Below, piece by piece: positions 15,124-19,388 of a stretch of 35,272 nt of DNA (position 1 is its first letter; every line of letters starts with the position of its first letter). This DNA comes from Gammaproteobacteria bacterium. GTDB taxonomy: Bacteria > Pseudomonadota > Gammaproteobacteria > GCA-002705445 > GCA-002716945. Both the position numbers and the translations under genes were made by a program. Location of the stretch: NCBI GenBank assembly GCA_018667355.1, contig JABIVC010000014.1:1-35272 (forward strand), given 5' to 3'. The notes under the pieces were generated by a model. That model was not told the origin of the DNA and did no database searches. It worked only from the letters and a program-made list of their open reading frames with translations.

Positions 15124-15426
15124 ATGACAGAGATAGTTTTAAAACCAGAATTAATTAAAGGTCTTCAAAAAGTTTTGGTAGATTATGAACCAGAAAATGA
15201 GGATCCTATTTTAGCAGCACAGTATCTTTCTGCAGTTGTCGGATCTATTGTTGCTACATCAGGTATACCTGAAAAAGACCAAGATGATATTTTGAATCAA
15301 CTGATAGATTTTATTAAATATGTTTATGGAGAGCAACGTAAAGCAGGAACAAGCCCTATGAATGCTCCAGAAACAACCGATCCTCAGTCTGCTCCAGATG
15401 CTTTCGGGAAATGGACTCCTAAGTAG
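15124..15426 (+). CDS. Unknown 100-aa acidic protein
   Basis: I do not recognise this protein. It is 100 aa, soluble and acidic, with a mostly helical-looking body (about residues 5-75, including AAQYLSAVVGSIVATSG and ILNQLIDFIKYVYGEQ). A proline-rich tail follows, ending AFGKWTPK. It has no signal peptide, membrane segment or cysteines. No good ribosome binding site precedes the ATG. Coding is supported by an uninterrupted frame with residue composition like its neighbours, and by a fit between the divergent hydrolase and convergent pyrD, whose stop codon overlaps its own by 8 bases. It may belong to an uncharacterised conserved family. Confidence 0.75.
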   Translation: MTEIVLKPELIKGLQKVLVDYEPENEDPILAAQYLSAVVGSIVATSGIPEKDQDDILNQLIDFIKYVYGEQRKAGTSPMNAPETTDPQSAPDAFGKWTPK

Positions 15427-16447
15427 TTTCTTGAGTGATTTCTCTTATCAGGTCTAGGCCAAAATACACCAATCCAGTGTATAGTTGTAGTAGGTCAGCA
15501 CCTGAATTTAGTTTTTCAACAGCTCCCTCTTTTGAGGTAATACCACCAGCACCTATTATAATAATATCGTCTTTAACCATACTTTTTATGTCTTTAATTA
15601 TTGTATTTGATTTTTTATAAAGGGGTTTCCCACTAACGCCACCCATGCTTTCATGAAAACTTTTATCTGAGAGAGAGTTTTTATCTATAGTTGTATTTGT
15701 TGCAATTACACCATCTATTTCATAATCCAGCATTTGTTTACATAGAATTTCTAAATCATCATATTGAATATCTGGAGATATTTTCAATACCAAAGGAACC
15801 TTTTTTTGATATTTTTTGCTTAATTCTGTATGTGTTTTTTTTATTTCATGAAGAAATTTATTCAAGAAATTATCAGAATGTAATTCTCTTAATCTAGATG
15901 TATTTGGCGAAGATATATTTAATGTTATATAGTCAGCTAAAACAAATATTTCCTTCATACAGTATTGATAGTCTTCATGAGCTAACTCTATTGGAGTATC
16001 ACTATTTTTACCTATATTAATTCCTATAGGTTGGTTTCTCTCTATCAACTTTAAATTATTTTTTAAGTATTGAACTCCTTTATTATTGAAACCAAGATGG
16101 TTTATTATTGCAGTATCTTTAACCGACCTGAAGATTCTTGGCTTACTATTGCCATACTGAGCTTTAGGAGTAACGGTTCCCAACTCAATAAAACCCATAC
16201 CTATATTGTTATCAAAGTTTAGATAGTCTCCATTTTTATCAAAACCAGCCGCTAAACCAAGTTTATTAGGGAAGTTTAATCCCATAAATTTATTTGTCAC
16301 ATCAACTCTGTTTGTTATAAATATATTTTTTAGCCATGACTTATATATAAATTCTGCTGTATTTAAAGTAAATGTATGTGCGGTTTCAGCAGGCAACATA
16401 AAAATTAGATTTTTATATAGATTAAAAAAAGTTTTTGATAATTTCAT
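15419..16447 (-). CDS. pyrD: Dihydroorotate dehydrogenase (quinone), class 2
   Basis: Oxidises dihydroorotate to orotate in pyrimidine synthesis, passing electrons to quinone. The protein is 342 aa (E. coli 336). The N-terminal amphipathic/helical extension typical of membrane-associated class 2 enzymes spans about residues 1-40. FMN-site segments include GLAAGFDKNGD, GFNNKG, GINIGKN and GAGGI. The catalytic serine lies in NISSPNTSRLR. It diverges from the rubrerythrin gene. The Fur-like site at 16458-16476 lies only 11 bases upstream of its ATG, so iron could also affect it, though that would be unusual. Confidence 0.97.
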   Translation of the reverse strand: MKLSKTFFNLYKNLIFMLPAETAHTFTLNTAEFIYKSWLKNIFITNRVDVTNKFMGLNFPNKLGLAAGFDKNGDYLNFDNNIGMGFIELGTVTPKAQYGNSKPRIFRSVKDTAIINHLGFNNKGVQYLKNNLKLIERNQPIGINIGKNSDTPIELAHEDYQYCMKEIFVLADYITLNISSPNTSRLRELHSDNFLNKFLHEIKKTHTELSKKYQKKVPLVLKISPDIQYDDLEILCKQMLDYEIDGVIATNTTIDKNSLSDKSFHESMGGVSGKPLYKKSNTIIKDIKSMVKDDIIIIGAGGITSKEGAVEKLNSGADLLQLYTGLVYFGLDLIREITQETT

Positions 16448-16457
16448 ATTTACAATT

Positions 16458-16476
16458 GAGAATGATAATCATTGTT
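16458..16476. promoter_or_regulatory. Fur box
   Basis: The 19 bp match 16 positions of the classical Fur consensus GATAATGATAATCATTATC, including the whole core AATGATAATCATT. The site lies between pyrD and the rubrerythrin operon: 11 bp before the pyrD ATG and about 26 bp upstream of the rubrerythrin -35. It overlaps a possible pyrD -10 (TATAAC on the minus strand, 16474-16479). Whether it represses pyrD or modulates the rubrerythrin promoter is not clear from position alone. Confidence 0.75.
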
Positions 16477-16502
16477 ATATTAACTAGTTTAACATAATAA
16501 TA

Positions 16503-16531
16503 TTGACACTTATTGGTATTAAATTTAGAAT
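16503..16531 (+). promoter_or_regulatory. Sigma-70 promoter of the rubrerythrin operon
   Basis: The -35 TTGACA (16503-16508) is perfect, and the -10 TAGAAT (16526-16531) matches five of six consensus bases, with an ideal 17-bp spacer. The predicted start site is about 16538, giving a leader of about 65 bases before the rubrerythrin ATG at 16604. This is the best promoter in the window. Its -10 lies within the palindrome at 16524-16540. Confidence 0.8.
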
Positions 16532-16540
16532 GATTCTAAA
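16524..16540. promoter_or_regulatory. ICE/PerR-like palindromic operator
   Basis: A perfect 8-bp inverted repeat around one central base: TTTAGAAT-G-ATTCTAAA. It resembles the iron control element bound by Irr (TTTAGAA-n3-TTCTAAA) and differs from the PerR box (TTATAATnATTATAA) at two of 15 positions. It covers the -10 and predicted transcription start of the rubrerythrin operon, so a bound protein should block transcription. The Irr-like regulator encoded at 18996-19388 is the obvious candidate. Confidence 0.75.
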
Positions 16541-16603
16541 TAGTTTTTTAATACATGTTAAAGACTATTTTAGAATATTTATTGAATAATAAGGAGAAAT
16601 ATT

Positions 16604-17023
16604 ATGGGATTAAAAGGTTCAAAAACAGAACAAAATCTTAAAGATGCATTTGCTGGTGAGTCACAGGCTAACAGAAGATATCTTTATTTCGCGGCAAAAG
16701 CTGATGTTGAAGGACAGAATGATGTAGCATCTGTATTTAGATCAACAGCAGAAGGTGAAACTGGTCACGCACATGGTCATTTAGAATACTTGGAGAAAGA
16801 GTGTGGTGATCCAGCTACTGGCGAGCCTATAGGTAGTAGCGAAATGAATCTTAAAGCTGCAATCGCTGGCGAAACCCATGAGTATACAGATATGTATCCT
16901 GGCATGGCAAAATCTGCTAGGGATGAAGGTTTTGATGAGATAGCAGATTGGTTTGAAACACTTGCAAAAGCTGAGCGTTCACATGCCAATAGATTTACTA
17001 AAGCATTAGAATCAATATCATAA
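16604..17023 (+). CDS. Rubrerythrin, short form without rubredoxin domain
   Basis: A ferritin-like di-iron protein, typically an NAD(P)H-linked peroxide reductase in the cytosol. The protein is 139 aa. The ligand pattern is complete: E19 (GESQA), E52 and H55 (EGETGH), E90 and E93 (GETHEY), E124 and H127 (AERSH). The C-terminal rubredoxin domain of classical rubrerythrin (about 190 aa) is absent, so electrons must come from another protein. A strong ribosome binding site (aaggag) lies 9 bases or so before the ATG. It is the first gene of the operon, followed by a hairpin and the Fe-S protein gene. Confidence 0.96.
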   Translation: MGLKGSKTEQNLKDAFAGESQANRRYLYFAAKADVEGQNDVASVFRSTAEGETGHAHGHLEYLEKECGDPATGEPIGSSEMNLKAAIAGETHEYTDMYPGMAKSARDEGFDEIADWFETLAKAERSHANRFTKALESIS

Positions 17024-17031
17024 ATATCACT

Positions 17032-17063
17032 TGTCCCCTTAATTATGATTGAGGGGACATTTT
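17032..17063 (+). terminator. Hairpin with short T-tract after rubrerythrin
   Basis: TGTCCCCT (17032-17039) pairs with AGGGGACA (17052-17059). One G-T and two A-T pairs can extend the stem to about 11 bp around a 6-base loop. Only four T's follow (17060-17063), so termination is probably partial. It would allow much more rubrerythrin than downstream Fe-S protein and DUF3501 message, or protect the 3' end of a processed rubrerythrin transcript. Confidence 0.7.
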
Positions 17064-17092
17064 AGATAAACTTATCAATCATGGAGAATAGA

Positions 17093-18394
17093 ATGGAAGG
17101 TGGGTTACAAAAACCAACAAGATTTAGTATTGATTGGAAAAATAAAGACTACTTAAATGAAGAGTTATTTGAAGAGGAGTTAAGAAGGGTGTCTGATCAT
17201 TGTCATGGATGCCGAAGATGTGTGAGCCTATGTAACTCTTTTCCTACTTTATTTGATTTAATAGATGAATCAAAAACATTCGAAGTTGATGGAGTTACAT
17301 ATGATGAATTTAATAAAGTCATAGATCATTGCTATCTTTGTGATTTATGTTATTTGACCAAATGTCCATATGTACCGCCACATGAATGGGCTATAGATTT
17401 TCCTCATTTAATGTTGAGAGGAAAAGCTATCAAACATAGTAAATTAAAAACCTCAATTAGAGATAGAATTTTAACATCTACAGATATGCTTGGGAAACTA
17501 GGATCTCGAAAATTAATAGCTCCAATCATAAATTATTTTAACCAGATAAAAATATTTAGAGTATTACTTGAAAAAATATTACGCATTCATAGAAATGCTA
17601 AGCTTCCAAAGTTTTCTTCCTATACTGCAAAATCCAAATATAAAAATATCTTAAATGAGACAAATTCAAATAATAAAGTTGCAATATTTACAACTTGCTA
17701 TCATAACTATAATGAACCGAGTGTTATTGAGGATTTAGTGAAGGTTTTGAAACATAATAATATTTCTGTGGAATTGATTAAAGATGATAAATGTTGTGGC
17801 ATGCCTAAACTAGAGCTAGGGGATTTAAATACAGTTGAAGAAATGATGAGTCATAACATAGAGAAGTTTAAAAAGTATGTTGACAAAGGTTATAGTATTA
17901 TTGCTCCAGTTCCATCATGCGTTCTTATGTTTAAGCAGGAACTACCATTGCTTTTCCCAGAAAATAAGGATGTACAGTCTGTATCTAATGCAATATGCGA
18001 TCCATTTGAATACTTGTTAAAACTACATAACTCTGGAAGCCTAAATGTAGATTTTAAAAATGACATAGGGTCTGTATTTTATCAGGTTGCATGTCACCAG
18101 AGAGTTCAAAATATAGGACAAGTTACTAAAAAGATACTTGAGCTAGTCCCGAATACAAACATAGACGCCTTGGAAAGGTGTTCTGGCCATGATGGAACAT
18201 ATGGTGTAAAAAAAGAGACACATGAGGTAGCAATAAAAATAGCTATGCCTATAGTTAGAGAATATGAAAAACTTGAATCAACCCAGTTTACTAGCGATTG
18301 TACTTTGGCAGCACATCATGTAGTTAATGCAATGGGTAACAAGGTATTGCCTACTCACCCAATTGCGTTATTAAGAAAAGCTTATGGATTATAA
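17093..18394 (+). CDS. GlpC-like (Fe-S)-binding oxidoreductase
   Basis: An iron-sulfur protein of the GlpC / heterodisulfide-reductase-related type, 433 aa. Two ferredoxin-like motifs bind [4Fe-4S] clusters: C37-x2-C40-x2-C43-x3-C47 (CHGCRRCVSLC) and C80-x2-C83-x2-C86-x4-C91. Two cysteine-rich domains follow, the first with CCG at about 234-236, the second with the variant CSGHDG at about 363. There are no membrane helices. I choose the ATG at 17093 over 17081 because GGAG at 17083-17086 then has proper spacing and the protein opens MEGGLQKPTR. It lies between rubrerythrin and DUF3501 genes, an arrangement I recall from other proteobacteria; electron transfer to rubrerythrin is inferred. Confidence 0.9.
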   Translation: MEGGLQKPTRFSIDWKNKDYLNEELFEEELRRVSDHCHGCRRCVSLCNSFPTLFDLIDESKTFEVDGVTYDEFNKVIDHCYLCDLCYLTKCPYVPPHEWAIDFPHLMLRGKAIKHSKLKTSIRDRILTSTDMLGKLGSRKLIAPIINYFNQIKIFRVLLEKILRIHRNAKLPKFSSYTAKSKYKNILNETNSNNKVAIFTTCYHNYNEPSVIEDLVKVLKHNNISVELIKDDKCCGMPKLELGDLNTVEEMMSHNIEKFKKYVDKGYSIIAPVPSCVLMFKQELPLLFPENKDVQSVSNAICDPFEYLLKLHNSGSLNVDFKNDIGSVFYQVACHQRVQNIGQVTKKILELVPNTNIDALERCSGHDGTYGVKKETHEVAIKIAMPIVREYEKLESTQFTSDCTLAAHHVVNAMGNKVLPTHPIALLRKAYGL

Positions 18395-18409: not shown

Positions 18410-18991
18410 ATGAAAAAATTAACTAGTAAAAACCTGTTGTCCCTAGAAGATTATGAGAAACAAAGGGAGCAGATTAAGGCTGACTTGTTATTACATAAAA
18501 AAAATCGGTCTATTATGATCGGAAAGAATATATTATTATTATTCGAAGATTATGAAACAATAAAGCATCAGGTGCAAGAGATGCTAAGAATTGAAAAAAT
18601 TTTTAAAGAAACTGAAATTAATGACGAAATATCGGCCTATACTCAGCTTATTCCTGATGGAGATAATTTAAAAGCAACTATGCTTATTATGTATCCAGAT
18701 GTATCAGAGCGTAAGATTATGTTGAATAGGCTAAACGGCATAGAAAATAATATTTATTTACAGATTGATGATATAGATAAGATATTTGCAGTTTCAGATG
18801 AAGACCTCGAAAGGACGAAAGATGGTAAAACGTCAGCAGTTCATTTCTTAAGATTTCAGCTTGACAAGAGTATTGTTGAAAAATTTAAATCTTCGAATAA
18901 TATTTTACTTGGTGTCGAACATGAAAACTACACGTATAATATGAAAATTAATAATGAAGTAAAAAATGCGCTGGTAAGCGATTTTGAGTAA
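18410..18991 (+). CDS. DUF3501 family protein
   Basis: A 193-aa soluble protein matching the DUF3501 family. Visible landmarks are NRSIMIGKNILLLFEDYETIKHQ (about residues 32-54; the FEDYETIKHQVQEMLR part is the core), then ELTAYTQLIPDG-like text (EISAYTQLIPDGDNLKATM) and SERKIMLNRLNGIE. No catalytic motif or cysteine pairs can be seen, and its biochemical role is unknown. AAGGAG about 10 bases before the ATG is a strong ribosome binding site. It is the last gene of the rubrerythrin operon and is convergent with the Irr-like regulator, 4 bases away. Confidence 0.9.
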   Translation: MKKLTSKNLLSLEDYEKQREQIKADLLLHKKNRSIMIGKNILLLFEDYETIKHQVQEMLRIEKIFKETEINDEISAYTQLIPDGDNLKATMLIMYPDVSERKIMLNRLNGIENNIYLQIDDIDKIFAVSDEDLERTKDGKTSAVHFLRFQLDKSIVEKFKSSNNILLGVEHENYTYNMKINNEVKNALVSDFE

Positions 18992-18995
18992 AATA

Positions 18996-19388
18996 TTATT
19001 TATTTCTTACTTTAATCAAAACTTCTGTTTGTTCTAACTCTAAGTCACTTGGAATATCTGGCATTTTAGAGAATGCTATCTTATCATCACTCACATCAAC
19101 AAGAGTATTGTTGCTAGTATTATATATATGATGGTGCGACCTCAAGTTTGTATCATAAAATTTACAATCATTTCTTAAATCAATAGTTTTTAATAGTCCG
19201 GTTGACTCAAATAGACATAATGTATTGTATATAGTAGCTTGTGAAATAGGCAGTTTTATATCTCCAACTTTTTCAATTAACTGTGCTGCAGTAAAATGCT
19301 GATTTTTGGCAAAAATAAGCTCTGCAATTTCTAAACGTTGCTTTGTTGGGGTTATACCATTATCTTTTAATAAACATTCTATATTCAT
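18996..19388 (-). CDS. irr: Irr-like Fur-family transcriptional regulator
   Basis: A Fur-superfamily DNA-binding regulator, 130 aa. The winged-helix domain covers about residues 1-80, with recognition helix QATIYNTLCLF (50-60). YDTN followed by HHH at 85-87 is the haem/metal motif seen in Irr. The CxxC zinc motifs of Fur and PerR are missing. The C-terminus (MPDIPSDLELEQTEVLIKVR) also has Irr character. The N-terminal haem regulatory motif of Bradyrhizobium Irr is not seen. The likely target is the palindrome at 16524-16540. It may be read through from the upstream dehydrogenase gene or from its own TATAAT six bases before the ATG. PerR-like function is the main alternative. Confidence 0.85.
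   Translation of the reverse strand: MNIECLLKDNGITPTKQRLEIAELIFAKNQHFTAAQLIEKVGDIKLPISQATIYNTLCLFESTGLLKTIDLRNDCKFYDTNLRSHHHIYNTSNNTLVDVSDDKIAFSKMPDIPSDLELEQTEVLIKVRNK

Follow-up and report, generated by a model that had tools for sequence, protein, structure and literature searches.

Promoter, palindrome and operon

The window analysed here, a stretch of 35,272 nucleotides from a gammaproteobacterial genome, contains a rubrerythrin operon whose promoter has its -10 element inside a palindrome. The locus raises the question whether this palindrome is an operator and, if so, which protein binds it and in response to which signal. Promoter and palindrome sit between the divergent genes pyrD (15419-16447, minus strand) and rbr (16604-17023, plus strand). 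The sigma-70-type promoter (16503-16531, plus strand) consists of TTGACA at 16503-16508, a 17-bp spacer and TAGAAT at 16526-16531, and a promoter scan ranked it as the best of six promoter-like sites in 16380-16640, with 11 of 12 letters matching. The palindrome, TTTAGAATGATTCTAAA at 16524-16540, is a perfect 8+1+8 repeat that encloses the -10 and represents a putative operator of the Irr/ICE type. Both elements had been described in an initial annotation of this DNA and are confirmed here, the promoter by sequence and scan. A divergent minus-strand promoter running through the palindrome (TTAACA-17-TAGAAT) was rejected because its -35 region is missing in the short g5 leaders. The rbr leader also contains a second TTTAGAAT half-site at 16569-16576, 45 bases past the first, and several g1 relatives have TTTTAGA stretches that resemble it.

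The rbr gene encodes a 139-aa rubrerythrin without a rubredoxin domain (aerobic type; Pfam PF02915). It is followed on the plus strand by a gene for an Fe-S oxidoreductase of the GlpC/CCG type (17081-18394; Pfam CCG, with the GlpC models scoring under their cut-offs), the RFO of PMC5114695, and by a gene for a DUF3501 protein (18410-18991; PF12007, 213.5 bits) which shares 59-61% identity with proteins of two uncultured Gammaproteobacteria bins. From the downstream end, a minus-strand gene (18996-19388) converges on this operon; profile models, alignment, tree and fold assign its product to the Fur family as an Irr-like protein, the proposed repressor. Between rbr and the Fe-S gene, folding revealed a hairpin with a 12-bp stem (17032-17059, plus strand), whose shape is kept among relatives while its sequence differs. 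The hairpin z-score was below -2 in 11 of the 13 regions folded, which were taken from 16 aligned regions after L045 (holding N) and the near-copies L040 and L050 had been left out, and the hairpin is also present in L039, L041-L044, L046, L048, L049, L051, and L055. Partial termination at this hairpin could keep the expression of rbr higher than that of the two genes that follow.

As a bare symmetry, the palindrome is unremarkable. The window contains three perfect 8+1+8 palindromes, where 100 first-order Markov sequences average 1.84, and at up to three mismatches the own genome has 45 copies of the palindrome vs 65 of a reversed control pattern. At zero mismatches there is a single copy in the own genome (1.03 Mb, 94% complete), the one at rbr. 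It is conservation that decides.

Conservation of the site and its association with the Irr-like gene

A rubrerythrin match was detected in 36 of the 57 genomes searched, the own genome included. In the own family (f1), all 20 intact rbr loci carry the palindrome ahead of rbr, 14 in perfect form and six with one mismatch. Alignment of these 20 loci with the katG locus of genome G007, which is described below, showed that TTGAC, the -10 and the palindrome are constant and that spacer and flanks are variable. In the window, in G019 and in the 18 f1 regions that were retrieved, the operon has the Irr-like gene as its direct neighbour, with a broken reading frame in the L051 copy. We searched for this gene with the IrrA model in 39 of the 57 relatives, where the scores split into one group at or above 88.8 bits and another at or below 70.6 bits, and with tblastn in the other 18, all of them f1. 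It was not found in the f1 genomes G005 and G018, whose assemblies are incomplete (84 and 90%) and in which the ftsH site is still present. At locus L150 (G013:C16), the rbr match is limited to 43 residues, and neither an RFO nor a DUF3501 frame is listed ahead of the Irr-like gene; palindrome and Irr-like gene are retained, and a peroxiredoxin-like gene of the same genome carries a perfect site.

Among the 14 relatives from other families that have a close rbr, 10 carry the site. It is present in nine out of nine with an Irr-like gene vs one out of five without (G035), and the site of G045 is weak, with four mismatches to TTTAGAMTNAKTCTAAA. The palindrome itself is kept across genera, and TTTAGACTNAGTCTAAA-like forms are kept across families.

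A class-wide sample of 274 genomes yielded a close rbr in 118 and an Irr-like gene in 111. Sites were scored with a matrix built from 14 sites, excluding the weak one of G045, at a threshold of 11.4, the 99th percentile of 2,060 shuffled regions. The held-out set comprised 101 rbr genomes not used before, with 103 promoters and no rows dropped; G409 and G256 have two rbr copies each and were counted once by the better site, and L223, L249 and L284 have 177-254 bases upstream vs the usual ~400. We found the site in 69 of 73 Irr-positive genomes (missing in four) vs 9 of 28 Irr-negative genomes (Fisher p 2.4e-10, genomes treated as independent). With one genome per family, the counts were 50 of 54 vs 3 of 16 (p 2.3e-8, families treated as independent). 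Ten families include both Irr-positive and Irr-negative genomes; in seven of them the Irr-negative member has the site, and in three it does not. The association is thus carried chiefly by contrasts between families. Since three of these seven assemblies are less than 90% complete (G341, G371, G378), some Irr-like genes may simply be missing. Counting G035 along with the nine held-out cases, ten genomes are site-positive without an Irr-like gene having been found.

Other genes with the site and an upstream Fur-box-like sequence

When the 45 places with at most three mismatches in the own genome were scored, only rbr (26.1) and ftsH (21.0) exceeded 14.5, the score of the weakest training site. 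The next-best place reached 13.8, and we therefore rejected a wider regulon in the own genome and claim no further target. Autoregulation of the Irr-like gene through the same site was likewise dismissed, as no copy with three or fewer mismatches lies near 19388. The ftsH site of the own genome lies over a TTGACA-17-TAGAAT promoter. In f1, 19 of the 21 ftsH loci were scored: eight sites have at most one mismatch, six have two and four have three, and in G009 the ftsH promoter has no site. The ftsH sites of G005 and G004 (L305, L309) were unscored by the script and seen by eye. At ftsH of g5 the site is kept, and a clear -35 was not seen.

G007, a member of f1, has no rbr match. Instead, a catalase-peroxidase gene, katG (728 aa; product over both NCBIfam catalase-peroxidase cut-offs), lies between pyrD and the Irr-like gene, with a perfect palindrome 83 bases ahead of its start, accompanied by TTGAC and a 17-bp spacer. 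In this region (L132:3243-5529), katG occupies the place that rbr-RFO-DUF3501 has in relatives, behind the same operator. In g6, six genomes have a site at peroxiredoxin-like genes; the Redoxin domain was tested for in three. There are also single cases, which may be chance: a glutaredoxin-AhpC pair in G034; a gene of the di-haem cytochrome c peroxidase/MauG family in G050 (by Pfam, with the NCBIfam models under cut-off), where the site counts as upstream only if translation begins at an inner ATG; an Rrf2/IscR-like gene in G020 (L139:2034-2050, one mismatch); and a rhodopsin gene in G018 (L134:2197-2213, one mismatch), in whose assembly no Irr-like gene is seen. Typical targets of PerR-type regulators are katG, rubrerythrin and peroxiredoxin. 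In our small, hand-picked list, the genes with the site lean to peroxide defence over iron storage, as shown by rbr, katG and the peroxiredoxin-like genes.

A Fur-box-like site at 16458-16476 lies 47 bp upstream of the palindrome and about 10 bases from the start codon of pyrD. This distance is constant in six of six g1 and eight of eight g5 loci, where the box has three to four mismatches. Five g6 loci have a degenerate box (four to seven mismatches); it was not seen in the aligned loci of g4 or at katG of G007, and it has at least seven mismatches in all ten other-family loci. Genome-wide, Fur boxes at three mismatches are no commoner than the reversed control. The site may act on rbr or on pyrD.

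These distributions bear on two other explanations of the palindrome. It might be part of an AT-rich promoter with accidental symmetry, which the 1.84 perfect palindromes expected per such window would permit. We regard this as extremely improbable and have ruled it out, because the palindrome is kept across genera and families while its surroundings change, is associated with the Irr-like gene throughout the class, and recurs at katG and ftsH, all of which point to a conserved operator. The genome-wide motif search and the check for conservation in operon-sharing relatives, which the initial annotation had named, returned one perfect copy at rbr, one further strong copy at ftsH, and a site retained in all intact f1 loci and most other-family loci. 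The other explanation is that canonical Fur is the regulator or a second regulator, with Fe-Fur binding 16458-16476 and perhaps also the palindrome. The own genome encodes such a protein (C8:65466-65819, on another contig), its only other Fur-family member, and the box keeps its distance in g1 and g5. This explanation is nevertheless unlikely, since the palindrome stays where the box decays, disappears or lies far off, the boxes do not exceed their control genome-wide, and the site may serve pyrD. Moreover, the own-genome search with the GATAATGATAATCATTATC Fur box lists 16458-16476 and not the palindrome at 16524-16540. The palindrome as operator of the Irr-like protein remains the preferred reading.

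The Irr-like protein, its possible signal and known systems

The Irr-like protein (130 aa) scores 111.4 and 111.3 bits against the NCBIfam Irr models NF045677/NF045678, missing both cut-offs (170 and 150, respectively). These are nevertheless its best scores, with PerRA at 80.8, PerRB at 58.0 and other PerR models lower. In a tree of Irr and Fur rows, PerR being absent, Fur is separated from the rest (100/100), and the Irr-like proteins of Gammaproteobacteria cluster together (94/97) next to the Irr proteins of other classes/alphaproteobacteria (90/83), with G030 and L183 left without a placement. The tree uses 8 of 15 Fur rows and omits L082 (identical to the window protein) and the frame-broken L051 copy; the row labelled F1_F1L057 in fact represents G030 (identical to L087), which is outside f1. 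The predicted fold has a mean pLDDT of 78 with a weak C-terminus, and its best match is 5nl9, a Leptospira peroxide regulator.

The HxH haem-binding motif is present as HHH at 85-87. H31, D79, H85, H87, and D98 align with the five regulatory ligands of B. subtilis PerR (2fe3), which are His37, Asp85, His91, His93 and Asp104 in B. subtilis numbering, with an Asp/Glu rule at 104 (PMC4866751, in the part consulted). In a 19-row alignment (A1, omitting the frame-broken L051 copy), H31, H85, H87 and D98 are invariant, and D79 is found in all rows but one, which has an undetermined residue. The five ligands are also present in alphaproteobacterial Irr and were for this reason ruled out as proof of peroxide sensing. 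The protein contains no CxxC motif and hence no recognizable structural Cys4 zinc site, a feature that is usual for PerR, not universal.

The description of the palindrome as ICE-like was followed up in 27 genomes from elsewhere in the phylum, outside the Gammaproteobacteria, whose Irr scores exceed the family cut-off and which, judging from Irr and the genes that carry the site, appear to be alphaproteobacteria. Exact TTTAGAANNNTTCTAAA occurs in 16 of the 27, at 23 places, vs none for the reversed control, and was not found in ten gammaproteobacterial control genomes, among them G096, the one that does have an Irr-like gene. Inspection of 16 of the 23 sites, one per genome, revealed that six lie ahead of a gene whose product combines rubrerythrin and VIT1 domains (MbfA type; the one checked by NCBIfam is over the MbfA cut-off). 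The remaining sites include one at a bacterioferritin gene, one at a BFD-like gene, one at an Rrf2 gene and four without a start within the set limits. The same letters thus stand at mbfA and bfr in genomes with genuine Irr, and the description holds.

We consider it likely that the Irr-like protein (18996-19388) is a repressor acting on the palindrome over the -10 of the rbr promoter, and by comparison the pairing of putative operator and candidate regulator is well supported. A dimer of this Fur-fold protein would sit on 16524-16540 and cover the -10, thus keeping RNA polymerase off rbr-RFO-DUF3501; it is the position of the operator that suggests simple repression. Release would most likely occur via H2O2 reacting with iron at H31, D79, H85, H87 and D98, a PerR-type site, or alternatively via a change in haem or iron status affecting the same HxH region. 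Peroxide would then be removed by rubrerythrin and its presumed electron-transfer partners, and ftsH is probably under the same protein. Promoter, palindrome, conservation, gene association, site-bearing genes and ligands enter this model through comparison; binding, direction of regulation and signal are what we infer from them. The computable evidence favours the regulator proposed in the initial annotation, because site presence appears to follow the Irr-like gene. Its main point stands, and it had overlooked the Fur-box-like site and the peroxide-defence leaning of the wider site set.

As to the signal, we see roughly an even chance that it is peroxide, which is somewhat favoured by the genes concerned and by the absence of a clear OxyR: of 25 f1 genomes searched with the OxyR model, 24 gave nothing and G007 gave a marginal match (E 8.7e-4). 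The chance of a haem or iron signal like that of alphaproteobacterial Irr, with the operon serving mainly iron safety and repressed at low iron, lies somewhat below even. The placement in the Irr clade, the HxH motif and all operator letters being common to Irr genomes, and the presence of the same operator at mbfA and bfr (iron storage and export) in those genomes argue for haem or iron, and the leaning of the site-bearing genes here, a small list picked by hand, argues against it. Both signals are plausible, since haem at HxH lowers the DNA binding of Rhizobium Irr (PMC7762939, in the part available) and a Rhodobacter irr mutant shows better peroxide resistance, with mbfA and ccpA as Irr targets (PMC3413700, likewise in part).

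The comparisons suggest that an iron-based repressor may control peroxide defence in these small marine bacteria. More tentatively, and with rather more doubt than confidence, the gammaproteobacterial members of the Irr clade, a large branch, may be peroxide sensors of the PerR kind that govern a peroxide-defence regulon through the iron operator of alphaproteobacteria. In the streamlined marine family studied here, in which a clear OxyR was not detected, such a sensor would be the main peroxide-responsive repressor, controlling rubrerythrin or katG together with the FtsH membrane protease. The class-wide pairing makes control of the rbr operon testable and hints at a way for bacteria lacking OxyR to sense peroxide, and the replacement of rbr by katG behind one operator is a natural experiment. 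Our literature search, mostly outside subscription papers, found no publication in which Irr controls rubrerythrin in Gammaproteobacteria, and the literature compared here names no regulator of the aerobic-type rubrerythrin operon.

The aerobic-type cluster of PMC5114695 has the same three genes and a rubrerythrin without rubredoxin domain, to which operator and regulator are added here; a search of its main text for Irr, PerR, promoter and palindrom, and for Fur and regulator as whole words, gave no hit. An Acidihalobacter rubrerythrin cluster is described without the words Fur or PerR in the accessible part of PMC7760498. Irr is described as limited to alphaproteobacteria with few exceptions (PMC7762939, part of the text). 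The predicted Irr-type regulators of Acidithiobacilli resemble our case as Irr-like proteins outside alphaproteobacteria, but in the portion seen of PMC2631029 haem biosynthesis and siderophore receptors are named, and its text nowhere contains the word rubrerythrin. PerR of Bacillus subtilis and PerRA of Leptospira (5nl9) are similar in that the five ligands align and 5nl9 is the best PDB match in both sequence and fold, but PerR-model scores are below the Irr scores and the CxxC zinc site is missing in the window protein. In Rhodobacter mbfA, the site lies at or near the transcription start (according to the sections of PMC3413700 consulted), as it does here relative to a predicted start. 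A close parallel is also the alphaproteobacterial Irr/ICE system (mbfA, bfr, ccpA), which has the operator letters in common with this locus and whose Irr models are nearest to the protein, whereas the system described here belongs to Gammaproteobacteria, has a protein scoring under the Irr cut-offs, and has targets that lean to peroxide defence.
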